This document shows, one piece after another, positions 18,401 through 64,000 of a stretch of 64,000 nucleotides of DNA; within the stretch, counting starts at the first letter, position 1, and the number at the start of each line of letters is the position of its first letter. The notes beneath the pieces were generated by a model, which made no database searches, was not told where the DNA came from, and worked only from the letters and a program-made list of their open reading frames with translations. Made by a program: the position numbers and the translations under genes. This DNA is from Alentia gelatinosa (taxonomy: Eukaryota; Annelida; Polychaeta; Phyllodocida; Polynoidae). Where the stretch lies: positions 3,092,623 to 3,156,622 of the forward strand of contig OX465592.1 in assembly GCA_950022655.1 (NCBI GenBank), read 5' to 3'.

Positions 18401-21400
18401 ACCATACAACGTCGGTAACCAGCGCACCCCGGGACTTGTAAACAGACTGTATTCTGGGATACCTCAATAGGATCAAACATATTTGAATTTCGTAGAGCCC
18501 CTATGATTCAGTTTTTTTCACCGTAGCGGGTCCTAGCATGCCAGCATGTGCCATAGAGCTCAGAGACAAAACCTGACTAATTGACGCTGTGCTCTACGGT
18601 TGCTCCACAATTTTCATATGTGTCGCGGAGCTTGCGGATGTGTTAATCATAGTTCGTGGTAGGTGGACACCCCCTGGAAAGGAACTTACCGTATTGACAG
18701 ACATAGTAGCGCTGGGTGTCGCAGTTCTCATCGGTCCACCAGTACCTCTGGGGAACAAGATGGTAGGCGCGTTTGATGGCCATACAGTTCCTGGTCTTGC
18801 TGTAGTCCTGCAGGTCAGGTTCCCAGTCCGTGTACACAAACTTCTCACCTACAAGAGAAACATTCACATGAATTACATCTCCTCATCTACAAAGAAACAC
18901 ATTCACATGAATTACATCTCCTCATCTACAAAGGAACACATTCACATGAATTACATCTCCTCATCTACAAAGAAACACATTCACATGAATTACATCTCCT
19001 CATCTACAAAGAAACACATTCACATGAATTACATTCTCCGATCCGGCCTGGAAGTAGGTGGCGCTACGAACCGCCTTGGCTGCCATTTTGGAGACACACC
19101 TCCGCAGTGCTAAGCCTATGGGCCGTTTGGACGTCCATTAATTATACTTTTTAAAGTGTGAGGATGTTTTAAGTACTTCTGAAGAATTTCTCCTGATAAA
19201 ATCAGACTTCCCTCGCAATTTCAGATCAAATAACTATGTGGTAGCCCCAGTTAGACTAAAAACTCGATATCAACAAATCGTCGAAACAAGCGATTTTCTT
19301 CAAGTTGGCACGTTTAAATTATGTCTGACCAATGTAAATAATCCCATTTTAACTATTACATGTACAGAATGCACAAGAGAAGGTCGATTAATACAGTTTT
19401 TCGCCATTTTAGACTCTGACAGCGCTTTGTATTCACCAGGCAAGATGGTGGATCGCTCCGTTGTCAGGTGAATTTGCATGATTTGGAGGGTATTTTGAAC
19501 CGGAAGTGTCAAGCCGGATCGGAGAATTGAGTTCCCTTCAGGTAGTACAGTTATTTGCAATACGGGGAAACACAGTTACTGAGCCTGTACTAATGGCTGT
19601 TCGGGGTATTTTGTAACATAATTTATGTCAGCTGTCAGCCTTTGTATTTATTATCCACCTATTCCTGACAAGTGGCATACCAATATTGGTTCATTTAAGT
19701 ACACACTATTTCTTCATATGCAATATTTTTCTCTATTTGCTGGTTTTTGCAGCCCAAAGCACACAACATACACACTCCCTTAGTGTTTTCTATGGACATT
19801 TTGTATTTCTCTTTATAGTGGCTATTCCCCCAGTGCACAAGATATAGCAAGATTCATCATGATTGTTAATTTGTTAAGTTTTGCTAGGTTTTCAGTAATC
19901 ACATGCACTTTTGCCCTGAAGCATCTGTAAGATTAAGCACCTTCAGAATTTTTGTTGCGATAGATTGTGGCATGCTGCTATATATTATGCAATAGATCGT
20001 GAGGCGTCATGGCGGTGGAGCATCAAAATATACACACATTATCACGAAAAATACACACACCATCGTGCCGACATATTGCAGCAAAGGAGGTAAGACATAA
20101 TGCGATACTGTAAGACATAACAAGACATATCAAGATACAACAAAGCAAACCCATAGTACTGGTGGAACCAGTCCTTTAGCTGGATAATAAGAGGATATCA
20201 AAAAAAAAAAAAAATAATAATAATAATAATAAGAGGATATGAAATAGATACCAACCTGTGGGCCAGGACCATAGGCGGGAGTTGAGGCCCACCCAGTAGC
20301 TCTGCGAGCGTGGATCTAAGATCTTGACCTGTTCCACCAGTTCGGTGTGGAACTCGGCCGAGTTGATGGCGAGCAGGTCTCCTCCCATCGTGACACACTT
20401 ACTGCGGGCCTCGTACCAGGTGAACTTCTCGTCCTGAGTGTTCACGTAGACGCACCGCTCTGCCTGGTTGGCTCCGTATGCCACGCGGATGTAGTTAGTC
20501 CCAGAGCACTGAGACAGAGCTGTGCGGAGGAAGAGTGTGAGTGTGAGCTAACATTAAAATATCACAATCCGGTTTTTTTTCAAGGCGAAGCCGCGTGAAT
20601 TATGTAGCGATTCAAATGAGATGGGATCAAGCTCTGGCCCTAAACTTGAATAGGTTTCTGAATTTATCTCACCCTTCACATTGACCAATGGGCTAACCTT
20701 TGTGACATAATCCTCCATTGAGTACTCCATGGGAAATGAGTACAAGTTCCTAGTGTTAAGTCTATGGGGAAAAAATACCAGGGGTGAGATAAATTAATTA
20801 ACTGTTATTACAACGAAGATCATGATGTACCTTCATGAATATTACATATAAGAGGTGAACCACATCTCATAATCACCAATCACATCTTGACAATGAACAT
20901 TTTTAGCTGTCATATCATCTTTTCTGCTTCGCCCTATTGTGAAGTTTTCATAAAGTTTCCAACAACAGAAGACCAAAGGCTAGGTTTCTTTCTAATTTTC
21001 TCAATACAAGGAGTGGTCTGCAAGCACAACCTTCAATTAAGTGATGGACAACTTCCTTGAGGTATGAAGGTAATGATATGATGCCCAATTGTAGTGAAGA
21101 ATGATGATTTCTCTAATATGCGGCATTTCCACCGATTATGACTACCGATTATGGCATTTCACACCACTGACCGATTATGCAACACATTTAGTGCAATGAT
21201 TGTCAGGTGGAAACAGAAATGGTCAAAAAATAGATATGCAAAGAAGAGTTTCGAGCCACTGATAATAATCCATAAGAATAAATCATCAAGATCAGATTAA
21301 AGTAATGCGGCATTTCCACCTGCTGATAATGACCACCGATTATGGCATTTTGTACCATCGACCGATTATACAACACATTTAATGCAATAATCGTCAGGTG

Positions 21401-24400
21401 GAAACAGAAATGGTCAACATTTTTTCTCTCATGCCTCATGCAATATGGCACCAGCGACCAACTTCTGCAACCGACACCGAAATCAAAGCACATTGAATCA
21501 ATCAGTGATGCTCTGCATTTTACTACCAAAAGTCGGTCAGCGTCCATCACATTTTTGCAGTGCAGGTCACTGATTATGTACCACCAACCTTTCACAAGAA
21601 GAACCACTGACCAACTTTTGTACAGTGAAAATTATTGGTGGGTTTTTAGTTGGCAGGTGGAAACGCCGCATAAGGTGCATTTTACTTACGTATCTCGCAC
21701 ATGGAAGGAAAGCCGTTGTAGCTGTGGCAGGTTTCGTCAAGTAGTTTGTAGTTGTAGAAGCTGTTCATGGCAAGAACCCCACAGAACTGCTGGTTGTCGT
21801 AATAATTGGGCTGGTTCCGAGCCCACAGTGCATAAGCCCCTGAAAAGGAAGAGGAACATATTAGTAATAATGATGGAAATTTCCTGGGACACCTCCGTTC
21901 ATCACTGACCAGGTTGACAAGGCGAAGCCGCGTGAATTACGTAGCGATTCAAACGAGATGGGATCAAGCTTTTTATTAATGTATCTATTATTGAAGTCCA
22001 GATTATATTTCGCACTAAGAAGGCAATACAAAATATATGTTTACCATGCAGAGCTTTGTAAGATATCTATGTTAGTTAGGGATGTCACACGAAAACCAGC
22101 AAACGCAAAATGAACAACTGATATGATTTCCTAAAATTCCACCTTTTATTGGTGCAGTGACTTGTATGGGATGATTGTGAAAAATCTGTAAATGAAAGAC
22201 TATAAAGCACATAATAAAAATTCAATAAAAAAAACAAAAAACTTACCTCCAACCTTGAAGACGAGGTTCAGGCCGTTGCCTCCACACATCTGACTACTGT
22301 CGTCCTTGCACTTGACATTACATTCGCCGATTGCACGTTCTTGAATGTTCTTGTTTTTGTCTCCGTGGGTGTAACCGCAGTAGCATTCATCACCATTCTG
22401 TTAAACAGAGGGTAAAATGTCAGTGAAAGCCGGATTTCAGTGGTTTCAGTAGGATTACCTTGAAAACTAGGTCAGAACGTCTCAAATTCATACTTATTTT
22501 CAGGCCCATACTTCTTCATAATTATGATGAGCAATGCATTTTGTGAATCTCACTAAAGAACGTTGTGGAAAGTGCCAGCGTGAAAATGGTATTGCAGCGG
22601 GGTATTTCAGGGTGTGTGTTTGGTGCTATGCAGCGTAGTGAAAGGGTTAATAAACAGGCCCCAGGGGCCCAGGTTTATTAGAGGGTGCGTGCACGGCCTA
22701 TATACATTGCCTAAAGGTTATTCTGGTCATATAAAGACTTCTAATGTGCTGCAAAAAACTATCCCTTCACTATCTGCGTGCTATTCACTGTGATATTGTG
22801 AAAGGAGAATATGGCCAGTGTCTAAGTGTCATAGAGGCGTGCCCAACTGACTATGACCAATCACTCAAGACCGAAATACCTCAAGATCCACTGGTGATTG
22901 ATATGTTTGGATCCAAGATTTAGGCATTTGCAGAAATGACAAGTTGACTGGGTGCAAGTGGGTTACAAAAAAATTATCTATTGACTGAATGTAACCCACA
23001 CCTTTTAATTGTTATTCATTGATAATTTCACGCTCATTCATCAGTGATGAACATACCGTTTGTTCCTAGTTAGTGTAGCTGAACATACCATTTGCCAAGC
23101 TTGGTGGCTAGGGGGTAGGGGTGTTCGCCTCGAGCATGGGAGGTCGTGGATTCCAACCCTGGTTAGGTCATACCAAAGACTTACATAAAAATGGTACCCA
23201 CTGCCCATTCGGCTTAACACCCGCCATTAGAATGAGGAGTAGCGGGCTAGGGACTGAGTGGAAGAACGGCTGTATAGCTGAATTCGGGGACTGTGTACAC
23301 ACAATATTCCCTTAATGAAAATTGCTGAAAAAGTTTAAGAAATTTGCGGCAAGTTCCACCACTATCTAGTGCGTATGTGTCAGAACCAATCACAGTACAG
23401 CTTACAATAGTCCAGTTCATATGACACAGATTAAAGACATAGGTCTGTGATGGTCAAAGAGAGCACGGCTGACATTGGTCAGCGCCGCTGGGTGGTGAAA
23501 GGAATAACGTGGTTTGTTGTTCTATATATAGCATCAGTTTGACAAGATCTGATTGGTTCTGACGAATACGCACTAGACAGCCCTTTTAGTGTGGCTACTG
23601 ACCTGCAGGGCGGCGTAGCTGTAGCCGGTACAGGCGGTGATACACGAGTCCTGGGTGATGGTGGTCGGGAAGACGCGATACGGAATATCTCGATTCTGAA
23701 CGTTATCCGTGAAGCAGCCCTGAGGCTTGATGATGCGCTCACCTGGTGGGAGAGAAAATGGTGAATTTATTTTGTTATTATTATTATTTTTTTTAATAAT
23801 GTTTATTCCACATTCTGTAGTTATTTTTTCAATATATTTTTTTTTAGCAGAAATTGTATTGCTCCATTCCAGTGTGCTACATGCTATCACAACATACAAT
23901 GATAATAGCATTAGCTTTGTTCTATTTTGGTGATTATTAACAGTTTGCTCCTTTTTATAATTGAATTTTCTTTTTTTTAACTATTGAGGGGAGGGGGAAG
24001 ACGGTGAATTTTATCATATCTCAGGGTTTGTCTTCTATCAATAAACAAAAATGGTTTCTTGAATGGAGATATGAGTTCTGTAGTGCAGGTTTACAAGTTC
24101 ATGCACTCCCTGGTGTGTAATATCAAGAGTTATGATATCTCCCTCAACATACATTCCCAAAATGATTGACCTATTATTTCTTAGATATTGGAGGAGGTGA
24201 CATGGTGATATCAAATAACCAGCAATTTGATCCCTCTTCATTGTGGAATTATTTTTTTTTGGGGTGCATATGTATTTAGATATTTCTACGATTAATCCAT
24301 ATCTTAAACGTTTCTTAAGCATGGACTTTTATCTTACCCCAGTATTTTTCTCCATAGGCTTAACGTTAGGAACTCATACTCCATGTCCATGAGGTTTGTG

Positions 24401-27400: not shown

Positions 27401-30400
27401 AGGAACTTAGCTTTTTATAAATGATCCGATGACTGGATAGTCAAGGTGTTGATCTTTTATGACTTTGAGATTTCCAATAAGCGTTCGTGCATGACAACTA
27501 AATAATATGTATAATATAATGAATTATAATAAAATATAATAAATATAAAATAATGATTGTACTGGCTATTGTATCAGGCCCGTGCATGTCTGTAAAATAT
27601 TGTGAAGCCTAATAAAAATGATTTAAAAAAAAGATAAACTGTGTATAAACTGTGAACTTACTTGATTTTGATGGTTGAGCTGTAAAGTGTGTTAATATCA
27701 AACGTTAGTGTGAAGTCATTATAGTAAGTATACACAGTTATTATTCATTTAACATTGTCAAGTATAGGATGTCTACAACTAGTTTCAATCATAGTTACAA
27801 TTCACAGCAAAATAGGTCTTTTTTTATAACACAGAATTCAAAACTGGGAAAAGGGGTTGGGCCCACTACCTATCAATTCTCATATTATTATCACAATATT
27901 ACTCACACTGTTTTATATTTTGTTTATTTCTATCAGTTCTGCCACTTTGTGATAGTTCTTCCACCGATTTTATAGAAATTCGTTATTATTAGATGTCATG
28001 GTGAATTTGGTAGAAAGATTGTTAATAAACTCGAAAATTGTGGGATTCTCTTCTTAGAAAACAAAAGAACTGAACAGTCTGAAGATCTTAGGAATGAATA
28101 AAAGGAAATACATACATACAAGGAGGAAATAGTGTCAAATGAGAAAGGATTGTTGATTCAGTGCTAGCAAACATTTATTATTTTATGAAAAGTGAAATGC
28201 CTTACCTGCGATACCTCCACAGGACGCACAATCTGAAATCAAACCAGGAGGATATTTGTCAAAAACTTTTTCTTTTTTTTTTGTCTGCACATAATTGACC
28301 TTGAAGTAGATGGCCTTCCATTACAATATTACAGTGAATAGCACACTGATAGTTAAGGGATAGACTTTTTTGCAGCAAGCTGTAAGTCAATGTGACCACT
28401 CTAATCTTTAGGCACCGTATATAGGGCGTGCGAGCTCGCTCTAATAACTCAAGCCCATTACGAGGGGATATACTAAATGACATAACTACCACACAGGGTG
28501 CTGACTCATGTACGGGTCGCAGTCTGAGGCCTCAGTTACCAGGGTAACATTGATCTGCATAGTGTGCAGTACACAGTTTACAGTTGATACGTCCCCAGGG
28601 TAATATAGACCGTAATCATGAAGGTGAGAGCTGCTTTGATGGTAAATCGCTTTGTATATCTGTACACGCGAAACAATTTTCAATAGAAAAAATCTTTAAA
28701 AAGAGCTAAAGGACCATGTTGAAGCTCAATTTAAAAAATTTCATTCATCGATTGTGGTGCACCTTTTCTCTCGAGATGATCTCGACGTAATATAACCGTA
28801 GTACACTCTCATACACTTAGTCTAATTGTAGAGAATACGTTGCTATGTAGTTGTTTGGCCGAACACGTGGCGTAACCAAGAAGATAAGGCACACCCCAGA
28901 ATGTGGGAAAAAGTCTAAAAATGTGCTAATAATACAATACTTAGTAGAAACCGAACGAGAGTTAGACTTGTCAGTGTTTATGCCACGATGGGCAAGTCGT
29001 GTATTACTACGCGAAGCGTTAGCTGAGCGTAGTGAGGAACAGACCTGACCAGAGTGGCATAGTCACTGACAAGTCTAACTCGAGTTCGGTTTCGTATTTA
29101 TCCTACCCCGTCCCTACCCTTTTGGATTACTAAAATATAAATATCGATTGAACAACCAACCGAAGTCCAACCGGAACTTTTGAGTCCAACCAGAACTTTT
29201 TTCGGAGCAGCTCACAATCTGGTCGCTGATTGGTTGATTTTTTTTGTTTAGGCCCCTAGAGGCATAAATCGCACTTCACGTCATGGCATGCCGCATAAAA
29301 TTTGCCTATGTTATGCCTATGGACCGTTTTTATTAGGGGTAGGATAATGTAGTATTATCAAGAGACGTCACAAGTTTGAGTCTGAGATCATTTATGCCAC
29401 GCATTTTGTTGGCTCCATAATGTGTTGGCTCCATAGAGTCAAAGACGAGTGACATTACGGAGCGTGGCATAAATAAGCTCAAACTCAAACGAGTGGCGTC
29501 TAGATTTTATCCTACCCCGTTTCCATATTTTTTCAGTATCAGAAAGTAGTGACATAAACAACACTTTATGTCACACCCGTGAAATAAACAAATCCCATGT
29601 TAAGCCTATGGCGTTTTTTATTAGGGGTAGGATAAATACTCGTCTACCCATGCTACTCAGAGTAGTAAGACTGTTCCTCATGTTTTGAGATATATTCAAG
29701 CACCGAAATGATATATCGAAAAAAATTAATAAAAATTAATAAAACCCTCACCGGAAACCCATCGCTAGACGGGAGTGCCCGAGTTTTGAGTATGAATGTT
29801 GCCTAATAAAGAAAATAATTTTAAAAAAATAAAAAAATAAAAAAATAGATTTTTTTTTGAAACTCACCGGAAACCCACCGCCAGACGGGGGTGCCCGACT
29901 CCTCGGTTCCGCCGATGAGCAGTTTCTCGTAGTTGGTCTTGTCGCGGGCCGCGCTGATGGCGTCGAGGGCGAGGCTGGAGACGAAGGCGTTGGTGGCCTC
30001 GTCGCCGAGGACGGCGAGGCTGGCGGGGGAGGTGTAGTACCCGTGAAGGAACGCCCTCTGCCGGCAGTCCTCGCGGGCCTCGGCCGCCGTCCGCGACACG
30101 TTCACCACCTCGTAACAGTTGTTGTTGAGTATGTTGGTGGACTTACAGGCGCCTGTGTGGGGACGAGAACAACATGTGGATTTTTATTATTGTTATTTAT
30201 TGGTTATTATTCCTACCCTAGTGAAATGAAGAAGAGTGGGGTAGGTTTATTGGTAAAATAAAATTCTATTAATTTGAATTGTTGATAAAAAATTGATTTA
30301 TAGGCTCCTGTGTGGGTGTACAAGAAAATTTATGGAGTTTTTATATCGTTATTTATTGGCTATCATTCCTCCTCTAGTGAAATGAAGAAGAGTGATGCAG

Positions 30401-50500: not shown

Positions 50501-53500
50501 GCCAAGATAATGTACTTGAGTTGAGAAGATTTAAAATGGGTCGAGTTCGTTACGGGTCGAGTTTTTTACGGGTCGATATCGTTACGGATCGAGTTCTCCA
50601 GTATTCGATATATCCGGCCTCATTCACACCAATAAACAGTGGTTCAAACCTCCCCATATATACTCCAGCTTCATTCCATGTCCAGTAACGCTATGTTTCC
50701 ATGTTTTCTCAGTCTCTGAAGCAGTAAGTCTCACATGAAAAAATATTTCCTCTTTTTGTCATGACCCCAACTGACATCCCTGGCATACATAAGAGTATAT
50801 TAAAATTGTTGATGGCAAAATAAAAGCATTCTGTGGTGTATCATCATACATATATACTTAATTCATCGGAAAGGTGATAGTAGCTGTCACTACAGTTATT
50901 TCAGTTAAGAAGAGTGGGGAACTCAATTGTAGCACAAACTAGATCCCAATATGCAGCATATAATTGATTATAAAGAATTCCAAAGTCATGCCAAATCTCA
51001 GTATTCCGTTTATGATTGGCGGTGATCCAAGAATTGATCTCCCAATTCTGTTACCTTGTTGAACGATAACTTGTGGGGTATTTATGATGGATATGTGTCT
51101 GACATATATATTTATTCTATTGATATGGTTCTCCGGTACAATACTTATGAAGAAACCAACAAGTTTTGGTCAAAGTCGTCGTTCTCCACGAGTTTGATGC
51201 GGTGTGATATGAACGAGGGGACAGCCGAGTGAATATCGTATAGCATTAAAACGAGTTGTAGAAAGACTTCTTTGACCAAAACGAGTTGCTTTCTGTATTT
51301 ATCTCACCCCTATACACACTAAGAGAATGGACAAAACACAGGATATAAACCATGGAGAACGGGCTGCAATACTTGTAGGGGCATGGAGAACGAGGTCCCA
51401 ATGTTAACCTATGGACACTTATTCCAGGGGTGAGATAAATAGCGGTCTGCCACTATAATCATTATCACCCTTCATCTTTTCTTCATCTGCACTGTGTATC
51501 AATCCCGTCTATGGCATTAGGCAGTGTGAAATCGTGTCGTCTACACTAAGTATGTTTCCTAATAATACTGGAAACCTCAACCCGAAATGACTTGATCCGT
51601 AAAAAACTCAACTCGTAATGAACTCAACCCATCAGAAGAACTCGACCCGTAACGAACTCGACCCGTTTTAAATCAGCTGAACTCAAGCATCGTATTAATA
51701 CAACTAAAGGCCCGTTTCCAATGGCCGACAAACACAGTGTAGATTTTTTGTGTTCTCCTAAAAGCCTATTTCCATTAGCCATCACCGATATGCAGTCAGG
51801 ATCCGCCGACAGGCCAGGGCACCGCTGACGCAAAATGTAAATAGGATTTTAGGAGAACACAGAAAATCTACACCGCTTTTATCAGCCAATGGAAACGGGC
51901 CTTATGGATACTTATTTCAACTTTGATAATAGGAAGTATGTTATTTTGGCTTCAAATTTGGCCCTCTAGGGGGAAGAAAACAAACAGAAAACCCTACTCT
52001 TAACCCTATCCCTAAGCCTCACTCTATCTCTAACCCTAACGCTATCCCTATCCTTATCCCTAACCCTAGCCCTAATCCAAACCTTAAACCTCACTGGTCT
52101 TTTTTTCAAAATCCCCGGGTTTGTTCATCTAAAACAGTGTCTTATCCATAAGTATCTAAAGTAGGTCGCGTTCGCGGGTCGAGTTTTAAAAAAAGGTCAA
52201 GTTCTCCTGATAGGTCGAGTTTGTTTCGGGTCAAGTTCTCCAGTAACCATATGTGTACCACAGTGCTTTCTTTTATCTCAGCCCTGGTATTGTCGTCCCA
52301 TAGGTTTAACATTGTGAACTTGTTCTCCATGTCACTACGAGTATTGCAGTCCGTTCTCCATGGTCTATATCCTGTGCATGATTCATTATTTCATTGTGAA
52401 CAGGGGTGAGATAGATACAGAAAGCAACTCATTTTAGGCAAAGAAGTCATTCTCTAACCTGTTTGAAAGCTATGTGATATTCACTCAGCTGTCGCCTTGT
52501 TCATATCACTGCATCAAACCCATGTAGAATGATGACTTTGACCAAAACTTGTTGGTTTCTTCTTTAGTCTCCTTACCCCCAAGATGTTGTCTTACTCTGA
52601 TTTGTCTCTGTCCGCTGTTCGCTGCTGCTGTTTGTATTAAATACACAAACCCTGTATAAACATCACTAGAGTAGTTCTTCATTTATACGGTAGCATCTAA
52701 CAGCTAAATAAATGGGGCTTACGGTACTTAATGACATACTTCATGCTCCTTAAGGGCTGATTCCACCAACCAGGCGAAATGACTGTACACCAACCACACG
52801 GCGTTTGCCAGCAGATCTGGCCTGTAGCAGGCGAAGACCTGGAACACCTCGGCAGCTGAAGTCTATCTTAACCCCGTGTAAGGGAAACCCTGCGTTAGCG
52901 GATAACCTGCGTAAGCGGACACCTTGCCCCGGAATATCACCCCTTTCATAAGATCTCACACTCTCTAAGCGGTATTCTGTACTCTCACTACGCGCTATGG
53001 GAGAATAATTCCTAATGAACTAGGCTTAAAGCCGTGAGAATCCACTGGCCTGCCTCTGTGCTAAAGACGTACATCAATGCAACCCAAAGATTCCTATAAT
53101 CTCAATGATGCCACCTAGCGGGAATACTGTGTGCCAGTGGATTCTCAAGGCTCTAAGCGAATTCCACTTAAAATGGAACAGAATCTTATGAGATTTTGAA
53201 CCCTGTGAGGTACATGAATCCCACTGTGTGAATTCCACTTAAAAAGGAACAGAATCTCATGAGGTTTTGAACCCTGTGAGGTACATGCATCCCACCATGT
53301 GATTTCCACCTAAAAAGTAACAGAATCTAGCCGAGCCTGGAAATTGTATGAAGAACCCTAATAAAATCTATCTAAAGAAAAAAAAAGAATCTCATGAGAT
53401 TTTGAACCCTGTAATGTACATGAATCCACTTAAAAAGATACAAAAAGTAAAGCATAAAACCTATCTTTTAACAAAAATAAGGAAATACATAGACCAAAAT

Positions 53501-56500
53501 ACAGCATTACAAATTTATCGAACAACTATACTCCCCTACCTTGACTACGCTGATTTTATTTATGACAACGGTACCCAGGCGATGCAAATTGAAATACAAA
53601 GATTACAAAATAAAATTCTTAGATTAATTTATAAAGTAAAACTAGAACCCACCCCAAAGTTTTCAACAGAAGAAATGCATGCTAAAGCGAAGCTGTTCAA
53701 ACTCTCTCAAAGAAGAGATATACACCTGTTGAACTATGCACATACTTTAACTAAAGACGTAGATCTGGTTGATACCCGAAACCTCCCAGTAAGGAGGAAA
53801 CACGGGCTACGACTACTACAACCACCCCTTAAGGACCCTGTATTTAATTCTTCATTTTATTGCCGTAGTATTGCAGCCTGGAATAACCTAAAGGAAGTAT
53901 ACACGATCACCCCCGAAAAAAATAAATTTAAAATACTTATAAAAAAGAATTATTTAGATTGTTACATGGACTAGTCAGCTTGTGTTGCAACTGACGTATA
54001 GCAGTTCTAACTAAATTACATTTAACACAGAGAGCACCCCTATTCCCCCAGCCCCACTCACCCCACTTCTTATAACCTAAATGAGAAGGTAGATTGTGTT
54101 GCAACTACCACTGTACCAGTTTAATATTATCTTGAATTACTTTGTCTTGTAAGGTCTGGTTACTGTTTTTTGCCTTAATTGTAACCTGGCATGGTTAAAA
54201 TTATATTTCTTTAAGCGGCAATGAGGATAATTTGTCTCGATGTACTGCCTAATTAGGCTGCTGAGTATTCTAAGTAACCAAGACTTACTTTCGGAATGTT
54301 TATCGAACTCTTTACCTGTGATTATAGACATGTATATGTAACCCACCTCATCCCATCTCATCACATCAAATGGTCTCACAAAACAGTGGTCAACTGCTCA
54401 GTCGTTATCAATGTTATATGGATTTACAACTGAGAACGAGGGACCAGGCGGCAGAACGGTTTACAACCGAGCCTGGACATCGTATGTATGTACTGATGAA
54501 AACCCTAATAAACTTGATCAAAAAAAAAAAAAAAAACATAATCTCATATGATTTCGAAACCTCTGAGGTACATGAATCCCACTGTGTGAATTCCACTTTA
54601 CAAGGTACAGAATCTCATGAGACTTTTAACCCTCCGAGGTACATGAATCCCAGCTTTTTTTCACCGTGTGAATCCCTCGCTAACATATACCACCCCCTTC
54701 CCCCTCAGGCATCACCTGCCCGCTCCGCTGGAACCAGACCAGCTCGGGCTGCTACCAGATGGTGCAGGAGCTGGTGACGAGGAGCGAGGCGAGTCGGCGG
54801 TGTTCGGACCTGGGCCTCAGCGAGACGGGCGTGGCGGGGGTGCTCGCCTCGCCCGCCACCCAGGAGCGGCAGAAGGACCTCAACACCCTGATGAAGGCCC
54901 ACTACGCCCAGCAGCCCACCGACTACCGCCGGGGACTGGCCAGCGACGTGTGGATCGGGGGGTACGAGGAGAGCGAGGAGTTCAACTTCCCGCCTTACCC
55001 TGTGTGGCGGGTTCTGGACGGTAAGTACACATGTAGATGGAGAAGTGCAGTACTTGGTCGCACGAGCTATATACGGTGCCTAAAGGTCAGATTAAGTACA
55101 TGTACTGTAATAGTAGATTACTTGTTATACAAAGTACCCAGTTAGAGCAAAGAGTTCAACTTCCCGCCTTACCCTGTCTGGCGGGTTCTGGACGGTAAGT
55201 AGAGGGAGTAGTGCAGTACTTGGTCGCACGCCCTATATACGGTGCCTAAAGGTTAGATTAAGTACATGTTCTATAATAGTAGATTACTTGTTATCCATGG
55301 TATACAAAGTACCCAGTTAGAGCAAAGAGTTCAACTTCACTTCTTACCCTGTGTGGCCGGTTCTGGACGGTAAGTAGATGGAGTAGTGCAGTACTTGGTG
55401 GTCGCACGTCCTATATACGGTGCCTAAAGGTTAGATTAAGTATATGTTCTGTAATAGTAGATTACTTGTTATCCATGGTATACAAAGTACCCAGTGAGAG
55501 CCAAGAGTTCAACTTCCCGCCCTACCCTGTGTGGCGGGTTCTGGACGGTAAGTACACATGTAGATGGAGTAGTGCAGTACTTGGTCGCATGCTCTATATA
55601 CGGTGCCTGAAGGTTAGATTAAGTATATGTTCTGTAATAGTAGATTACTTGTTATCCATCGATACAAAGTACCCAGTGAGAGCCAAGAGTTCAACTTCCC
55701 GCCCTACCCTGTATGGCGGGTTCTGGACGGTAAGTACACATGTAGATGGAGTAGTGCAGTACTTGGTCGTACGCTCTATATACGGTGCCTAAAGGTTAGA
55801 ATAAGTGCATGTACTCTATTGAGAGATACAGGCATACTGGCTCAGACTAGAGGGAAACTTGCAGTAATAATTTAACTTAAATCAAATAAAACAAGAAATA
55901 ATAACGTCTTTGAATCAGAAAACTTTAAAAGCATATCATCACCTATCATATGGTCAAACCATCAAATTGTCATGGTTGCAATAAGGCTTGTTTCCATTGG
56001 CCGACTAGAACGGTTCAGATTTTCTGTGTTCTCCTAGTACCCTGCTTACATTAGCCATCACCGATCTACTGTCAGGAACCACTGACGGACCTTAACACTG
56101 CTGACGTCATATGAATATATGCTATTAGGAGAACACAGAAAATCTACACCGTTTTCTTCGTCCAATGGAAACGGGCCTTTAGTGATAAGAAATTTGACAT
56201 TTTGAACTTTGTTAATCCATCTTTCTTACTGGAAAGGCTGGCCCTGGAACCAAGTTGGCAGTACATTCCCCGAGAGGGAGGTGGATGTTTATTGTTTGAG
56301 TATGAGTTCCTAACATTGAGCCTAGAAGACAATGAAATGCCGATTCCACCTTTGCCCGACGGATCCGTCAGTTTTGTGAGAATCCGCATCAATCGGGTCG
56401 ATGTAGGCACTTCACCGACCCGATTTTATTAGCTTTCCCGACGAGTCGGGCATTACTACTATGTCAGATAAGTAATGTCTGAGGGTCTTAGTGGCATGCC

Positions 56501-59500
56501 CAGCTGACCATGACCAATCACTCTAGACCGAAATAACTCAAGACTAACTGGTGCTTTATATGTTTGGATCCAAGGGGTGACTGGGTGCTAGTGGTTTAGA
56601 AAAACTATCTATAGACTGAATGTAACCCAAACCTTCGATAGTTATTCATAATTCCACGCTCATTCATCAATGATGATCATACCTTTTGCTCCTAGTGTGT
56701 TGGTGGAACCAACCCTTTGGTCAGATATATTATTCAGAAATTTCTTAGGAAGTTTTTCAACATGACCAAGAGGGTTATTCTCAGCTGCTTATTATGTAAG
56801 TCAGCTATATACAAAGCTCATGTATTACATGCTATAGTTGACCTGGGGATTTGTGTGCCACTGGAGTCATTCACACACTAACCCACAGCCCGATCGGTCT
56901 AAAGGCATATATATTGTGATGTAGATATTGTTAGTTTGTGTAAGGAGCTAGTAACGCCTGAGTCTAAACCAGAACCTGTTGGTTCTAACTGCATGCGTGG
57001 TTCAATTATAACACTTTGTTTGTGGAAGGTTCTAGTTGTTATGAGCATTTATTACCCACCTAAAATAAATGCGCAATAATGACTGGTTTTGTGTATGAGT
57101 GGCCGTAATCTCCAAGTAGTTGACCTGTAGTAATATCCAAGCGAATATTACGTCGTCAACTACGAGGAGATTACATCAATCATATACAAAACCAGTGGTT
57201 ATTGTATTTATTATCCACCTACATAATTAATAACAAGTATATTGCACAAAAGAAAGTTTATTACGAGACATGTAGGCCCTATTTCCAGATCATGCCATAA
57301 CGCTATATCATGGTGGTAATTAAGTACATCAGTATATTATAGTTCGCTATTTTTCCATGTTTTTTAGCATGCAAATCGTTTTATGACAGTGAGTTCTGAT
57401 GGTAAATGAGATTATTGTAACTCATTCTAAACGATTGATATTGAATGCATATTGAATAATCTTATATTGAAGTGAATGACGACTTGACATCATTATGGCT
57501 GGGACTTTTTTCCCGGAATTTTATGCAGAAGATTTTGACTTGCAATTCGTTACATCGCCTAGAAGTTAGAGTAGTCACATTAAACTTCCAGCGTGCTTCC
57601 AGAAAACTATCCCTTCACCATCTGCGTGCTATTCACTGTGATAGTGAGAACAGAGCAGGGAGCCAGTGTCACAGTCTCTTAGAGGCATGCCCAGCAGACC
57701 ATGACAAATCACCCAAGACCAAAATACCTCAAGACCCACTGGTGCTTGATATGTTTGGATCCAAAATAGGCAGTTGCAGAAATGGCAAGTTGACTGAGTG
57801 CAAGTGGGTTACAGAAAACTAACTTTTGATTGAATGTTGCCCAAACCTTTTAATTGTCATCAATTTATAATTGCACGCTCATTCATCTATGATGAACATA
57901 CTATTTGCTCCTATAAAAAAAAATTTAAATTTTTTTTTTTTAACCCTGCCTTTCTCTTGTTTAACTGTGGAGTCTTGTTTTTACCACACAGGTATGAAGA
58001 AACTGGCCATCCAGGGTTGTTTTGGGGACCGAGACACAGGCCGCGATGAGGACCGAGACCTTCCTGTGAAGGCCACCTTCACCGGAACTGGACCCATCCA
58101 GGCCAAGAACTGCACCGACTACTGCACCGGCTACAAATATGCTGGCCTCCAGGTAAATTCTTTCGAATATTGGTATGTGAAACATACAGTTTCTATCCCT
58201 TGGCCTAACTGACCAAGCTGGCTCTACGTAACACACCGTTGGAGGAGACCCCTTGGTTATGATCAACATGGTGGCCCCACGCGGTAAACACGGAGCCAGC
58301 ATATAATCCTAAACTTGATGTATTCTCATCAATCCGACTAGTGTAGCTCATTGCAGTAACACCAGCAATAAAACTTGTAACGGGATGAAGCCTTGGAGTC
58401 ATTCATTCAGCTTACTATTCACATCTAATAGTACCACCACCTTTCTTATAGTATTGCTGATATTGAAGGACTGTCTCATACCTTGTCTCCACGACCTATT
58501 TTGCAAATGTCTCATTTCTTTGCTGGTTTTTCCAGCTTTGGCCTGTACTCTGATGTAACCGTTTCCATAGGAAGCCAAAGTGAACCTGCTACAACCACAG
58601 ATAGCCGGTCACAAAATACCATTTCCGGATATAGGCGCTCAGTACTTTGACTATGTAGGTTCGAGATTATATGTCTCATTCTCCAATCTTTTAGATCCAT
58701 ATTTTGCTAAACTGAACAACTGTCATCGTAGCTTCGAGACAGAGTTATTCAGAGACGATAGTAATAAACTACACTCCAAAAGTAACAAAAGAGACCAAAA
58801 ACAAAAGTCTAGCCTCAAACCCCCACTAAGACTCGTTCTTACTGGCCATCGGAAATGGTGTTTTGTAAACGGGTATCTGTGGTTTCAGTGGGTTCACTTT
58901 GGCTCACTATACTCCTGATACTTTCAGACCCGGCTGAACCAGGTGCAGTGTTTCTGTGGAGATAATTACGGAAAGTATGGGGTAACCTCCGGCTGCACCG
59001 TGCCTTGTCCGGGAAACAATCAGGAATACTGCGGAGGAGAATCCAAGAACCTCATCTACGATCTCAGCGGTAAGAGCCTTGAGCCTATAAGCCAGCGACA
59101 CGACTATTGTGCCCGATCACACCTACTGCCCTCCACCTATGACCTCAGGCAGCATGAAATCGACGACTGACCTCAAACAGGAACCGTTTCGTTCACAGTA
59201 AGAGCGTTTCCTAGTAATACATATTTAACTTTTCTTTATTTCAGTGGGTACGGTAGGCGTGAAGTGGGCCTACAACCAGCCCAACAACTTCGACAATTAC
59301 CAGTCATGCGGGTCTCTGGAGAGCAGGAATAAGTGGAAAATGGGCGATCAGATGTGCGCTGACCTGCATCACTACATCTGTCACATACGTAAGTCGTTGT
59401 TACCCAATATTTACCCAATTTACCCAATATACCCACTACACCCAAGAGTTACCCACTATTTCTAAATTCTATTTATTTTTGCAAATAACTCTGGATAATA

Positions 59501-62500
59501 TAAGTTTCATATATCAGGAAATAGAAAATGCAAAACAAAGGTATGTCACCATGCTAACTTCTTAGTAACCACGTTTTCTCTTATTACTTCTGCTGAAATA
59601 ACATTTATCTATCTGATTTTTTAATGTGGAGTGGATACCACTGTTGTGATGAGGGCTCTGAACTTGTTCTTGGTATAGTTTGATAAGGTGAATGAAATGA
59701 AAACAGGACGAGGCGACGTCCTTCTCCCTCAGCGATGCTACCTTGAATGACAGTTATTAGAACTGCCCCTAACAACCGTATCCCCGGTGTCTCTATAGTC
59801 AGCTATGGAGGCTGAACAGTAAAATACTATTTGAGGACACAATAAGATGTTGTGAAAAGATTGAAATGTCAAACTTTGGGGGAAATAGGTCAAGGTTTCA
59901 CCGTGCTGGGCTCATCGGGCATCTTAATCAGCTTTTACGATTATGTCAAGGTGCCAGATCACCTGATCTGGACTTCTACTGTCATCTGGATTATGTTAGG
60001 TAATATTATTATTGTTTGTAATAAAGTTTTACCCAATGTTTTTGATGAAAGCGGAGTGCAGCCGTTACAAATTCCCATACTCGGGAATCGATCAAATTAT
60101 TGGCCATCATGTCTTGGATTTGTTGATCACACGTATACTTAGATTTTTTTTTTTTTAATATTGTTTGATAACGTTTCTGTCCTTCTGCTATTGCAGCCCA
60201 GTCCGCGTGCAACACCAACAGCCGTTACCAGACTGTTAACGGGAAGTGTTTGTACTACTCGATTGACCAGACACGGAACTGGTTCAGTGCCAGGACAGAC
60301 TGCATCAACAGGTGGGATCTTATATCTCAATACTTTTACCTCTATGATGATATATGGTCACCGTCAAATCATGTGACATTGTGGACTATTAGCTCAGTAT
60401 ACCCGTCAGGTCATGTGATATTGTGGACTATTATCTCACTATACCCATCAGGTCATGTGACATTGTGGACTATTATCTCAGTATACCTGTCAGGTCATGT
60501 GACATTGTGGACTATTATCTCACTATACCTATCAGGTCATGTGACATTGTGGACCATTATCTCAGTATACCCATCAGGTCATGTGACATTGTGTACCATT
60601 ATCTCACTATACCTGTCAGGTCATGTGACATTGTGTACTATTATCTCACTATACCTGTCAGGTCATGTGACATTGTGTACTATTATCTCACTATACCTGT
60701 CAGGTCATGTGACATTGTGTACTATTATCTCACTATACCTGTCAGGTCATGTGACATTGTGTACTATTATCTCACTATACCTGTCAGGTCATGTGACATT
60801 GTGTACTATTATCTCAGTATACCCGTAAGGTCATGTGATATTATGTATGTCTCAATACTTTTTTTTCAAAACTAATTTCACCATGCATCAACATTTGTTA
60901 ACATACTTAGTTACAGAAGCTAGTGTACAGGTGATATGAACATAAGCAGTCAAGCTGTATGATTATAAGCAGTCACCAGCACACTTTGAATCGTCACATT
61001 TCCATATGTAATTCATCAAATACTTATATTTTAAGGCATATAATAAAATAAAAATGTATTACTTTAAGGTATATATATTGCATCTTACTATCATCTCAGT
61101 ACACCCATCAAGTCATGTGAAATTATGTAATATTATTGATATCCTAAATAACATGGGCCATAGTCCAGCCATTGTGACAAGTAATTTAAAAAGTAAAGAC
61201 AGTAACATGTACTCCTATATACCTATGGCTGTACACTCTATGCTTACACCACGTTCTGGGGTTGGAGTAACTTATTGATACTACCCAAGGTTGCCGTATA
61301 CTACCCAAGGTTGCCGTATACTACCCAAGGTTGACATTTAGACCAATCAGATTGTCTCTTACAAAATTCATAGGAAAAGCGCAGTGGGGAGTAAACATAA
61401 AGTGTCAAGTTACTCGATAAGGTTGGATCTGGCTTCAGGTTTGATGGTAGGTGAGCAAATAACGCTAATTATCGTTATTAAACCACATTTGAAGGTATAT
61501 AGGAATAGGGAAACCAAGTACCAGTGAAAGGAAGTCAAAATTACTCGGTAAGGCTTGGAAAAATTACTGCCCGCAGCCAAGGCCTTGGGCAGTAATTTTT
61601 CCAAGCCTTACCTCGTAACTTTGACTTCCTTTCACCGGTACATAGTTTCCCTCTATTAGATTTATGACATAAATCACATCGTTTTCTGTATTTTATTACA
61701 GGAAGGGTGACCTTGTGAGTATCAGTGGTGAACAGGAGCGATTATTAATGAAGAACAAACTGGACACATTCGGCCTGAAGAGCGTGTACATGTGGATCGG
61801 ACTCATCGGCAGGCAATGGCTCTGGGCTGACGGTTTGTTTATCTTTCATTTTAAACTTTATTATCCATTTAATTTAACTTTTAGCATATCTAGGAGCTTA
61901 TGGAGAACTGAAATGAAAAAGTTTTAGTGTATTTTTTATGAGACTTATATAGAACTGGATTGAGAATCGTATAAATAGACAGTACTCCACAAGTTTGGAT
62001 GCGCCGCAATCGTCACCGAGGCAAAGCCAAGTGATGATTACAGCACATCCGAATGAGTGCAGTATTGTGTATTTTACGATTTGAATACAGTTCTGGATTT
62101 ATCTCACCCCTTTCAATGACATTAGAATAGCATCAAAATATCAGAATGATTCAGATTACTTCACAAATCCAGTTAAGAATGTACATACCTCCATGTTGAT
62201 GTCTTTTCTGCTTTCTCACATCCTGGCTGCTGATTGGCCAGTTCCTTATGACATCATCTGCCATTACTCTGCCACGACCATGGTGTAGTATTGTCACTTT
62301 ACCGGGGTGATCATTGCATATATGTTTTCTTAATGTCATTAATATGGCTAAACTTGTACCAGGGGTGAGATGGTAATACTCATATAACTTTGTATTCTTG
62401 TGCTACATTCACTGAAAATCATTTACAATGCTGAGCATACTTTGAGATGAATGACAGAAAATGAAGCGTTTTCGGGTTGGTGTAGGACTCATGTTATGTT

Positions 62501-64000
62501 CCATGTGGGTATCCAATGGGATGAAACCAAATTTTCCTTGGGAAAAATTCTAATGTGGACCAGAATTGTAGTGAAGTTCTGTCTAACTCCAGAAGACTAT
62601 ACAAATGGATATTTTGACAATAAAACACCTTATTCTCTTTCTAAATGTCGATGAGTAGTGGTGTGGTATACAGCCACTTTTCTCCTTCATCCCCAGCAGT
62701 GGTACACTTACTGATATATCAAATACCAGTCATTCTCATACCATGTCTATGTGGTGTGGAATGTAAAAGAACTCTCACCTCAGTAAATGTATAGAAGTGA
62801 TAATTCTATCTAAATTCATCACCTAGATTCGATCACCACCCTCGTGGTTTGAAAGGACCTTGGAATAATCTGGTAAGAACCTGTAATGGTTAACTGGACG
62901 TTAAATCAAACCAAACGAACCAAACCCATGCCTAGTTTTTCTTTCCTCACAGGTTCTCCGTTCCTCTTCTCCAACTGGGAGAGCCCGGACCCTGACAAGT
63001 TCTCTCAGGTGTGTATGACGTTCCACTACCGAGACGTGAGTAACGCAGGAGGAGACTATTACTGGAAGGACGAGACGTGTTCGAACAGACGCCACGCCAT
63101 CTGCCAGCTGAGTGAGTCGTTTACACTGTACTATAAATAGGTACCCTTTCAGTGAGTCACTCTACTATAAATAGGTACCCTCTGAGTGAGTCATTTACAC
63201 TCTACTATAAATAGGTACCCTCTGAGTGAGTCACTGTATTATTTATAGACCAATCCCAGGTACCTCTGAGTGAGTCATTTATACTGTACTATTTATAGAC
63301 CAGTAACACGTACCCTCTGAGTGAGTCACTGTACTATTTATAGACCAGTACCACGTACCCTCTGAGTGAGTCACTGTGCTATTTATAGACAAAGTACCCT
63401 CTGAGTGAGTCACTGTGCTATTTATAGACCGAGTCCACTCTGAGTGAGTCACTGTGCTATTTATAGGCAAAGTACCCTCTGAGTGAGTCACCGCACTGTA
63501 CTATTTATATATCAGTCCCCGGTACCCTCCAAATGTGAGTTATTGACACTGAAAACATACTACAAGTTGGAAAACCTGAGTACATTGCATCTCTGGCACA
63601 ACATTATAAAACTCGAAGTGTTACGATCAGAAGTGTAATCATAAAAGAAGTGCCCGATAAAATGTATATTTTTGATGATGGTGATTTGGTCGATAGATTT
63701 GTAATCATGTATTCTACTCGTGATTCACGATGTCAATTCATCCTACAAGAAGGTTTGTAGGCAATTATTAAACCCTTTCTCTTGGTCAAGATAAATAAAC
63801 CGCTCAGCCAAAAGTACAATGCAGTATAATCAAATACTGAACTAGATGATGGTTAAATGAATATTGTACTGTTTTTGACTCCAACCCGTTGCAACATAAG
63901 TCGACGGACTAACAACAACGTCCACGACAGAAACTACAACGACGTGGGCGCCGACTACAAGTGTCTCCACACTAACCACAACAACTCTTAGCACTCTAAC
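47484..64000 (+). CDS. Gene C: second CTLD-with-nested-WSC receptor (3' end outside window)
   Basis: Nine exons (47484-47553, 54709-55020, 57992-58152, 58928-59069, 59245-59388, 60197-60311, 61702-61832, 62953-63111, 63901 to the edge) join in frame to about 445 residues. Order: signal peptide 1-23; CTLD1 first half 24-127; WSC 128-228; CTLD1 second half 229-276; CTLD2 277-411; Thr-rich stalk from 412. It is the paralogue of gene B with the same order and the same phase at every shared junction, except that CTLD2 has one extra intron and the microexon is absent. Membrane helix and tail should lie right of the window. Function inferred as a glycan-binding surface receptor. Confidence 0.88.
48238..48406. 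mobile_element. MITE family 2, copy 4
   Basis: GGGGCCCGTTTAATAATCTA at the left. The right half is rearranged: TATTAAACGATAACCCTTGT is present but the terminal GGGCCC is missing. Confidence 0.6.
48541..48815. repeat. Foldback superfamily copy, fullest two-module example
   Basis: Module 1: arms ACTCACGAGATGAGAATAAC and TATTTTCATCAAGTGGGTTT around GAAGCGAAGTAGAGTGAATT. Module 2: TTTTATCTTGCCCC to CGTTAAGCCTATGG and ACCGGGGTGAGATAAT. The same two-module layout is recognisable in at least ten other copies. Confidence 0.65.
50046..50603. mobile_element. Inverted-repeat element containing a telomere-like tract, copy 1
   Basis: The ends AAAACTCGACCCGAAACGAA and GATCGAGTTCTCCAGT, with several internal GGTCGAGTT/AACTCGACC words, are inverted. 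The centre (50186-50460) is a degenerate array of TTAGGG, ATAGGG and TAAGGG. A second copy in opposite orientation is at 51570-52245. Confidence 0.75.
50186..50460 (+). repeat. Interstitial telomere-like repeat (TTAGGG variants)
   Basis: About 45 hexamers of TTAGGG, ATAGGG, TAAGGG and TAAGGA in mixed order, followed by GGGAAGGGTTTTCTGTTTGT. The variant mixture argues against a recent telomere fusion. Confidence 0.88.
51570..52245. mobile_element. Telomere-like-tract element, copy 2, split by a MITE
   Basis: Reverse orientation: ACCTCAACCCGAAATGACTT to GGGTCAAGTTCTCCAG. The tract AACCCTATCCCTAA (51995-52090) is flanked by GAAAACAAACAGAAAACCCT, as in copy 1. A MITE family 1 copy (51706-51903) has inserted into its left arm. 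Confidence 0.72.
51706..51903. mobile_element. MITE family 1, copy 5, nested
   Basis: AAAGGCCCGTTTCCAATGGC to AGCCAATGGAAACGGGCCTT. Inserted into the telomere-like-tract element, so it is younger than that element. Confidence 0.82.
53328..53386 (+). mobile_element. Very short 3' end of the same LINE family
   Basis: About 58 bp (AGCCGAGCCTGGAAATTGTA, AACCCTAATAAAATC, A-tail) aligns with the last bases of the LINE at 53428-54536. AGAATCT before and GAATCT after the tail look like a target duplication inside the minisatellite unit. Confidence 0.65.
53428..54536 (+). mobile_element. 5'-truncated LINE (non-LTR retrotransposon) 3' end
   Basis: An open frame to 53974 encodes about 180 residues typical of the C-terminal end of LINE reverse transcriptases (IYRTTILPYLDYADFIYDN, then IQRLQNKILRLIYKV and SIAAWNNLKEV). 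Palm catalytic motifs are missing, so it is 5'-truncated. A 3' UTR follows, ending AACCCTAATAAACTTGATC plus an A-tail of 17. Clade uncertain (CR1/L2-like or RTE-like). Not a host gene. Confidence 0.8.
54709..55020 (+). CDS. Gene C exon 2: N-terminal half of CTLD1
   Basis: 312 nt, phase 1 to 1, strong acceptor CCCCTTCCCCCTCAG. ITCPLRWNQTSSGCYQM gives the long-form first cysteines, SEASRRC helix 1, SDVWIGGYEES the WIGL-type motif, and VWRVLDG the end point, as in gene B (VWRWVSG). Very GC-rich. Its 3' end and donor are the first unit of a five-copy tandem repeat. Confidence 0.92.
54960..55810. repeat. Donor-straddling tandem repeat, five units of about 177 bp
   Basis: Each unit contains the last 45 or so bases of exon 2 (AGTTCAACTTCCCGCC, GGCGGGTTCTGGACG), the GTAAGTA donor and about 125 bp of intron. 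Donors fall at 55021, 55195, 55370, 55548 and 55730, with spacings of 174-182. Later copies carry exon-end-like coding sequence without an acceptor. Confidence 0.95.
55021..57991. other. Gene C intron 2
   Basis: Starts with the donor repeat. Also holds MITE family 1 (55983-56180), dispersed repeat pieces (56460-56710, 57590-57910) and a palindrome relative (57080-57195). The counterpart of the gene B microexon was searched for by eye and not found. Confidence 0.6.
55983..56180. mobile_element. MITE family 1, copy 6
   Basis: AAGGCTTGTTTCCATTGGCC to TCCAATGGAAACGGGCCTTT, 198 bp, core CACCGATCTACTGTCAGGAA. Non-coding. Confidence 0.8.
57992..58152 (+). CDS. Gene C exon 3: WSC domain, first half
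   Basis: 161 nt, phase 1 in, phase 0 out. GMKKLAIQGCFGD leads to NCTDYCTGYKYAGLQ, the WSC signature with its first three cysteines. It splits after GLQ as gene B does after ALQ. A charged insertion (DRDTGRDEDRD) makes it slightly longer than gene B exon 4. Confidence 0.93.
58153..58927. other. Gene C intron 3, within the WSC domain
   Basis: Contains one foldback MITE (58568-58910) ending 17 nt before the exon 4 acceptor. The rest is unremarkable. Confidence 0.6.
58568..58910. mobile_element. MITE with 45-bp inverted ends abutting a splice acceptor
   Basis: TAGGAAGCCAAAGTGAACCT with ACAAAATACCATTTCC at the left, GGAAATGGTGTTTTGTAAAC with GGTTCACTTTGGCTC at the right. A related inverted copy lies at about 25010-25320. 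Only ACTATACTCCTGATACTTTCAG separates it from exon 4. Confidence 0.8.
58928..59069 (+). CDS. Gene C exon 4: WSC domain, second half
   Basis: 142 nt, phase 0 in, phase 1 out. VQCFCGDNYGKYG, GCTVPCPGNNQEYCGGESKN, LIYDLS: a textbook WSC C-terminal half with the remaining five cysteines. Confidence 0.95.
59245..59388 (+). CDS. Gene C exon 5: C-terminal half of CTLD1
   Basis: 144 nt, phase 1 to 1. VKWAYNQPNNFDNYQSCG, then KMGDQMC and YICHI: the CTLD resumes after the WSC with the same NQPN motif and cysteine spacing as gene B exon 6. Confidence 0.93.
59389..60196. other. Gene C intron 5
   Basis: A short run of TTACCCAATAT-type repeats follows the donor (59398-59460). Nothing else recognised. Confidence 0.5.
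60197..60311 (+). CDS. Gene C exon 6: CTLD2, first part
   Basis: 115 nt, phase 1 in, phase 2 out. SACNTNSRYQTVNGKCLYYS and NWFSARTDCINR form strand 1 and helix 1 with the long-form cysteines. The phase-2 intron after CINR is absent in gene B. Confidence 0.9.
60372..60840. repeat. 42-bp minisatellite (about 11 units)
   Basis: Unit GGTCATGTGACATTGTGTAC plus TATTATCTCACTATACCTGT. It begins about 60 bp after the exon 6 donor. Since 42 is a multiple of three, two frames stay open, giving repeat peptides that are not genes. Confidence 0.93.
61505..61655. repeat. Large hairpin of about 60-bp arms
   Basis: Left arm words GTACCAGTGAAAGGAAGTCA and GTAAGGCTTGGAAAAATTAC face AGTAATTTTTCCAAGCCTTA and TGACTTCCTTTCACCGGTAC around a short spacer at 61570-61587. 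Few mismatches. Confidence 0.85.
61702..61832 (+). CDS. Gene C exon 7: CTLD2, middle
   Basis: 131 nt, phase 2 in, phase 1 out. KGDLVSISGEQE, VYMWIGLIGRQWLWADG gives a canonical WIGL motif and the W-x-W-x-x-G end point. The donor GACG/GTTTGT is weak, but frame and homology to gene B support it. Confidence 0.9.
61833..62952. other. Gene C intron 7
   Basis: Contains a foldback superfamily copy (61975-62375: ACTCCACAAGTTTGGATGCG, GAGGCAAAGCCAAGTGATGA, TTTATCTCACCCC, CCAGGGGTGAGATGGT). Nothing else seen. Confidence 0.55.
62953..63111 (+). CDS. Gene C exon 8: CTLD2, C-terminal third
   Basis: 159 nt, phase 1 to 1. FSNWESPDPDKFSQVC, YYWKDETC, HAICQL. The long-loop tripeptide is ESPDPD-like rather than EPN or QPD, so calcium-dependent sugar binding may differ from gene B. 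The CTGA/GTGAGT donor is the first unit of a minisatellite. Confidence 0.93.
63112..63530. repeat. Minisatellite of donor-containing units after exon 8
   Basis: About ten units of 37-50 bp, each starting CTGAGTGAGTCA (the real donor context) followed by CTACTATAAATAGGTACCCT or CTATTTATAGACCAGTACC. Every unit offers a consensus-like GTGAGT. Confidence 0.93.
63112..63900. other. Gene C intron 8
   Basis: Donor minisatellite for the first 420 bp, then about 370 bp of AT-rich sequence with nothing recognised. Confidence 0.55.
63901..64000 (+). CDS. Gene C exon 9: start of Thr-rich stalk (runs off window)
   Basis: After a weak acceptor (GCAACATAAG) phase 1 gives DGLTTTSTTETTTTWAPTTS and a continuing Thr run to the edge, homologous in style and position to gene B exons 9 and 10. 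No stop occurs before the window ends. Confidence 0.65.

Follow-up and report, generated by a model that had tools for sequence, protein, structure and literature searches.

C-type lectin-like domains (CTLDs; Pfam PF00059), such as those of the rattlesnake galactose lectin (PDB entries 1JZN and 1MUQ), sea cucumber CEL-I and the macrophage mannose receptor, vary in their long loop region to bind new ligands. In polycystin-1 and the REJ family, a CTLD and a WSC domain (PF01822) are separate neighbours in the chain, whereas in the annelid family described here one appears to lie inside the other. This family was recognised in a stretch of 64,000 nucleotides from the polychaete Alentia gelatinosa (contig OX465592.1, positions 3,092,623 to 3,156,622, forward strand), hereafter the window. 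The first CTLD (CTLD1) of one of its genes, gene C, is very probably interrupted by a complete WSC domain, the genomic sequence pointing to a real nested architecture within an expanded gene family.

WSC and C-type lectin domains are both mentioned in papers on polycystin-1 and the sea urchin REJ family (PMC1934368, PMC9672506). The WSC domain of Kremen is described as standing in line between a Kringle and a CUB domain (PMC9024836), whereas the annelid WSC is inserted within another domain. For fish CTLD genes of the antifreeze-protein type and of a serum lectin, a passage that mentions no inserted domain describes the WIGL motif as followed downstream by an intron (PMC514892); the annelid CTLD1 intron, its position compared by description, holds in contrast a pair of WSC exons. 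Domain insertion of the form A1-B-A2 is in general already known; an ECOD survey, the main text of which contains no occurrence of lectin or WSC, put its share among multidomain proteins at 20.23% (PMC13114784). No report of a WSC domain inside a CTLD was found in the titles and abstract openings searched, a search outside which the subscription literature mostly lay, and as far as searched this combination is new.

The interrupted lectin domain of gene C

The nested part of gene C is encoded by four exons (a slash in a protein motif marks the exon border):

54709..55020, + strand: exon 2, N-terminal half of CTLD1 with three cysteines and the VWIGG motif, ending PVWRVLD/G; 3' border phase 1
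57992..58152, + strand: exon 3, N-terminal half of WSC; 3' border phase 0
58928..59069, + strand: exon 4, C-terminal half of WSC with the CGG motif; 3' border phase 1
59245..59388, + strand: exon 5, C-terminal half of CTLD1 with NQPN and the last three cysteines; 3' border phase 1

The sequence-only reading, made from the letters of the window, had described a break of CTLD1 after VWRVLDG, a following eight-cysteine WSC domain and a restart at NQPN with the last three cysteines of the CTLD, and each of these elements was confirmed at its place. CTLD1 resumes after the WSC domain at the start of exon 5 with VGTVGVKWAYNQPNN, and its C-terminal half contains KWAYNQPNN. Exons 2 to 5 have gt/ag borders and keep a single open frame throughout. 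The WSC domain (exons 3 and 4) matches Pfam PF01822 over positions 2-82 of 82 with 47.4 bits, against a cut-off of 27.8, and its best match in the PDB is Kremen-1 (E 5.1e-5). When the WSC domain is removed, the flanking parts of CTLD1 match 1JZN (E 2.6e-5) in two aligned pieces, the larger of which spans the junction, and sea cucumber CEL-I over residues 3-150 of 151 (E 2.0e-4).

CTLD1 of the family shares with the described CTLDs the core cysteines and the N-terminal pair, the WIG-type strand, the W-x-x-x-QPN motif and the last cysteines; it differs from them in that its long loop region holds an entire WSC domain, about 90 residues long. The inserted domain in turn resembles the WSC domains of Kremen-1 (5FWS) and yeast Wsc1 (7PZ2) in its eight cysteines, its CGG motif and its full-length Pfam match.

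Nine genes with one plan

A single gene had been implied by the sequence-only reading; the same plan is in fact present in at least nine genes of the genome. The genome (1.23 Gb, 101 contigs) was searched, and single exons or profiles of exons served to scan the flanks of the WSC matches. The family consists of gene C, of gene B at 30152-21690 of the window (minus strand) and of the seven further genes listed here; in each of the nine, the four parts keep their order along a single strand:

g13, C14:13.83 Mb, complete nested set
g97, C4:97.36 Mb, complete nested set
g10, C14:10.66 Mb, complete nested set
g43, C14:4.31 Mb, complete nested set
g23, C14:23.13 Mb, complete nested set
g09, C14:0.09 Mb, complete nested set
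g34, C7:34.08 Mb, complete nested set

Nine is a lower bound, because four genome matches (C14:2970777, C14:23212365, C3:53259203 and C7:36545537) were left out of the count. Nesting is not established at the other WSC loci scanned, namely L001-L008 (3.1-3.2 kb each), L012-L014, L019-L020, L021-L023, L026-L027 and L028.

The border phases are 1-0-1-1 in all nine genes, as computed for genes C and B, g13, g97 and g10 and as read off the border contexts for g43, g23, g09 and g34; g10 and g23 have one extra intron within the N-terminal half of CTLD1. All nine carry the eight WSC cysteines and the CGG motif, and their WSC domains pass the Pfam cut-off over the full length, with best scores of 45 to 64 bits. 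The helix-1, fourth and last cysteines of CTLD1 are likewise found in every gene, and the inner partner in eight of them (absent from g09). Eight residues separate the border from the first WSC cysteine in eight genes and nine in g43, while 12 residues lead from the last WSC cysteine to the following border in all nine. Median pairwise identity across the nine genes is 29% for CTLD1 and 38% for WSC (gene C CTLD1 is 23-33% identical to its paralogues), and linkers so nearly constant in diverged sequences suggest a rigid arrangement.

After excision of the WSC domain, CTLD1 exceeds the Lectin_C cut-off of 22.6 bits in five of the nine genes (g13, 58.6; g34, 55.9; g97, 52.4; g10, 49.7; g23, 37.0 bits), and these matches run from profile positions 2-4 to 106 of 107. 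In the intact g97 and g10 the Lectin_C match is split into two stretches. At E <= 1e-3, a profile built from the nine excised CTLD1 sequences matched 193 distinct PDB sequences; the best stretch crosses the junction in all of the best 60 of these 193, and 1JZN, among the matches, was aligned over 2-137 of 138 (E 7e-16). Since the excised halves match CTLDs through the junction, the idea of two unrelated flanking domains, raised in the sequence-only reading as an outcome that would go against it, is contradicted by the Pfam and PDB matches; the proposal of a true domain-in-domain protein is supported, the flanks matching CTLDs as one continuous domain once the WSC domain is taken out. For genes C and B, whose own Pfam scores are poor, the identification of CTLD1 rests on the matches to solved CTLDs and on the clear paralogues.

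All four nested exons evolve as coding sequence in g13 and g97, since the ratio of non-synonymous to synonymous substitution rates (dN/dS, Nei-Gojobori) between these two genes is low, as under purifying selection: 0.186 for the N-terminal half of CTLD1, 0.160 and 0.039 for the two WSC exons and 0.055 for the C-terminal half of CTLD1. These values come from this pair only, with few sites per exon and dS of about 0.55-1.4.

Several observations weigh against a nested domain. The Pfam check that had been suggested for gene C came out clearly for its WSC domain and failed for its excised CTLD1, which with 18.5 bits stays under the cut-off, as do those of g43 (20.9 bits) and g09 (17.0 bits); gene B CTLD1 without WSC gave no Pfam match, and its alignment with 1JZN (E 1.1e-6, residues 73-143 of 144) lies mostly in the C-terminal half. 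Lectin_C was reported for the N-terminal stretch only in the intact g13 and g34. Two borders have GC in place of GT (g13 CTLD1 N-half and g34 CTLD1 C-half), the WSC exon donor of g09 (gtctgt) is weak, and the CTLD1 C-half of g09 (L039:1553-2389) retains two of the three cysteines, with LNDRGP where the missing one would be; the g09 copy may be changing. All exon joins are read from genomic sequence, and a scan upstream of genes B and C yielded no signal-peptide exon by its criteria. Finally, nested WSC domains were not grouped in a WSC tree with long branches (4 changes, 51 of 500 shuffles being as low), for which reason a single insertion is not established.

Further downstream, and within the intron after exon 2, gene C shows the following features:

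54969..55812, + strand: tandem array of about 4.7-4.8 units of 178-182 bp in the intron after exon 2
60197..60311, + strand: exon 6, start of CTLD2, a CTLD without insert
61702..61832, + strand: exon 7, CTLD2 to WADG/, with a phase-1 intron where CTLD1 has the WSC domain; donor gtttgt, departing from consensus
62953..63111, + strand: exon 8, remainder of CTLD2
63900..64000, + strand, continuing beyond the window end: Thr-rich open frame, candidate mucin-like stalk exon

The flanks might be thought to be the halves of two different CTLDs, with the WSC domain lying between domains and the partner exons missed, lost or misassembled. The introns following the N-terminal half of CTLD1 are roomy enough for missed exons in gene C (2,971 bp) and gene B (6,125 bp), and the poor Pfam scores of CTLD1 in these two genes would agree with such an artefact. 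The same two halves would, however, need to be missing in all nine genes, and the nested-set introns of g97 are just 565, 605 and 353 bp long and therefore leave little space for hidden CTLD halves; moreover, the halves are complementary across the junction in the five Pfam matches and in the matches to 1JZN and CEL-I. This explanation is extremely improbable, and missing-exon and assembly-artefact readings were ruled out by the nine genes with one plan. That gene C is a decaying copy within a real family is also improbable, if less strikingly so. Its CTLD1 is divergent and scores low in Pfam, and the array in its second intron carries copies of the final 52 bp of exon 2 together with the 5' splice site, giving five identical 17-base donor contexts, of which one is the true donor and four are intronic. 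Against decay, all seven exons of gene C are open with gt/ag borders, the six CTLD1 and eight WSC cysteines are intact, CTLD2 (exons 6-8) scores a strong 53.6 bits with Lectin_C, and g43, which has a similar array, also has open nested exons.

A different proposal takes the WSC exon pair as an optional cassette, regulated splicing switching between a WSC-bearing and a plain CTLD. The pair is symmetric, with phase 1 at both ends, and the frame is therefore preserved when it is skipped (as seen in gene C and, from the phases, in the others), and the excised CTLD is coherent by Pfam in five of nine genes. On the other hand, that the inclusion form matters is shown by the near-constant linkers and, in g13 and g97, by purifying selection acting on the WSC exons. 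Such switching is unlikely but conceivable; it is compatible with a WSC domain nested in CTLD1 and is no alternative to it.

Exon-tail-plus-donor arrays of one kind occur in two paralogues, gene C and g43; in the latter (L032:1626-2569) the tail of the WSC C-half exon and its donor are repeated in units of 82 bp.

Insertion site, probable origin and possible working

The introns bounding the WSC exon pair are both of phase 1 and the intron within it is of phase 0. An empty phase-1 intron is present at the matching place in all five CTLD2 domains examined (genes C, B, g13, g97 and g10), and in gene C it lies at WADG/, a motif equivalent to the insertion site of CTLD1; no WSC match was found between the halves of these five domains. 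The family thus shows the symmetric 1-1 module of exon shuffling, with its flanks in nine of nine genes and the empty intron of the sister domain in five of five, and exon shuffling is suggested because the symmetric WSC pair sits inside an existing phase-1 intron. A two-exon WSC module with phase-1 borders would have moved into a phase-1 intron of the CTLD just after the W-x-W-x-D/S-G strand, presumably in one event in the ancestor of the family. No intronless copy joining the CTLD1 and WSC parts was present among 32 genome matches, which do include a few single-exon WSC domains of other genes that span both WSC halves. Protein database searches gave no match at E <= 1e-3 for gene C exons 2-8 (1066 candidates) and one match among 45 candidates, P0001, for the nested protein of g97; residues 89-134 of 135 of this protein, which belongs to another record, are a WSC C-half exon of the family, with 87% identity to g97 over 46 residues.

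Since the insertion falls between QPN and the WIGL-type strand that precedes it, the WSC domain should project from the long loop of the CTLD. The WSC domain is described as having the PAN/Apple topology beta1-beta5-beta3-beta4-beta2, in which the first and last strands adjoin (PMC9024836), and it appears suited to insertion because these strands are neighbours. The CTLD core would fold and be closed by its own disulphides, the WSC domain leaving and re-entering it through one short turn, and the near-constant linkers may hold it on the ligand face so as to form a composite recognition surface.

Calcium site 2 of CTLDs is described as consisting of EPN or QPD, a glutamate and WND (PMC7618208). 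According to the alignments, QPN is kept in six of the nine CTLD1 domains and replaced once each by HPN, QPS and SPS; the residue two before the fourth cysteine, glutamate in 1JZN, is Gln in eight and Gly in one; and two of the nine retain the Asn-Asp of WND. The full set of EPN/QPD, Glu and WND expected of a calcium-dependent sugar-binding CTLD is absent from CTLD1, and calcium-dependent sugar binding would be reduced by this erosion. With the usual CTLD1 calcium and sugar site eroded, binding is likely to occur via the WSC domain and the outer faces. WSC proteins are reported to bind beta-glucan in a fungus and, in the case of Kremen, to join protein complexes (PMC9024836).

The Thr-rich frame at 63900 is probably a mucin-like stalk exon of gene C. 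At a distance of 6-7 kb beyond the window end (L009:6176-6556), an open frame encodes a strongly hydrophobic stretch and then KKNKS, and together the two frames are probably the predicted stalk and membrane anchor of the protein. The chain would accordingly run from CTLD1 with its inserted WSC domain through an uninterrupted CTLD2 to what is probably a stalk rich in Thr, followed by a transmembrane helix. Its sequence features suggest that the family likely has a role as membrane-anchored recognition or adhesion proteins in which a CTLD loop presents a WSC domain. A fuller picture, in which the long loop is a mounting frame, the WSC domain has taken over the ligand face, the calcium and sugar site has decayed and splicing switches between plain and WSC-capped CTLDs in at least nine membrane-anchored recognition proteins, is speculative and as a whole rather unlikely.

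If the nested architecture is true, the CTLD scaffold tolerates insertion of a whole domain in its long loop, and exons can be shuffled into the interior of a domain, provided that a permissive turn contains a phase-1 intron. Because profile searches show lectin pieces beside a WSC domain, genes of this kind may be misread elsewhere, in the genomes of other organisms.

Gene B and other features

Gene B has the same phases as gene C, and its recognised exons are as follows:

29868..30152, - strand: CTLD1 N-half, ending VWRWVS/G, phase 1
23603..23742, - strand: WSC N-half; 3' border phase 0
22247..22397, - strand: WSC C-half; 3' border phase 1
21690..21839, - strand: CTLD1 C-half, ARNQPNYYDNQQFC; 3' border phase 1
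20256..20519, - strand: CTLD2 N-half, ending WSWPT/G, phase 1
18690..18848, - strand: CTLD2 C-half

Its WSC domain scores 56.4 bits in Pfam, and the excised CTLD1 matches BJcuL (E 5.3e-7, residues 77-143 of 144, mostly in the C-half). The nested plan looks old, because genes B and C are only 31% identical in the excised CTLD1 and 33% in WSC. The two genes (- and + strand, respectively; within 18690-63111) lie head to head, their first recognised exons being about 24.5 kb apart; no further 5' exon was recognised for either. By the look of its translation, a 217-residue open frame at 53321-53974 of the window could be a remnant of a retrotransposon reverse transcriptase.

In both g13 and g97 the region upstream of the nested CTLD1 contains a VWA exon (L018:2106-2915 and L025:1498-2220, minus strand; PF00092, with 132.9 bits in the L025 copy), and no VWA match was obtained within the window at E <= 10. 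At L026 (C5:51.78 Mb) and L023 (C4:13.05 Mb), WSC C-half exons are followed by tandem CTLD pieces, possibly as parts of non-nested WSC-CTLD genes. Just upstream of the window (L011:7793-8375), two CTLD-like N-half frames follow GTTTP and suggest another multi-CTLD gene.

The sequence-only reading had looked to lancelets for related proteins, a placement at odds with the gene order of the 15,368-bp mitochondrial contig C101, which is that of an annelid in the wide sense. By Pfam, nad4, nad1, nad3, cox1, cox2, cox3, cob, atp6 and nad5 were found on one strand; nad2, nad4L, nad6, atp8 and the ribosomal RNA genes were placed by eye, nad2 having matched only a general family. Four derived positions have been described for annelids, pogonophorans and myzostomids (PMC2639372), and all four agree with the order found here: nad6 and cob after cox3, atp6 between cob and nad5, nad5 before nad4L and nad4, and nad3 between nad1 and nad2.

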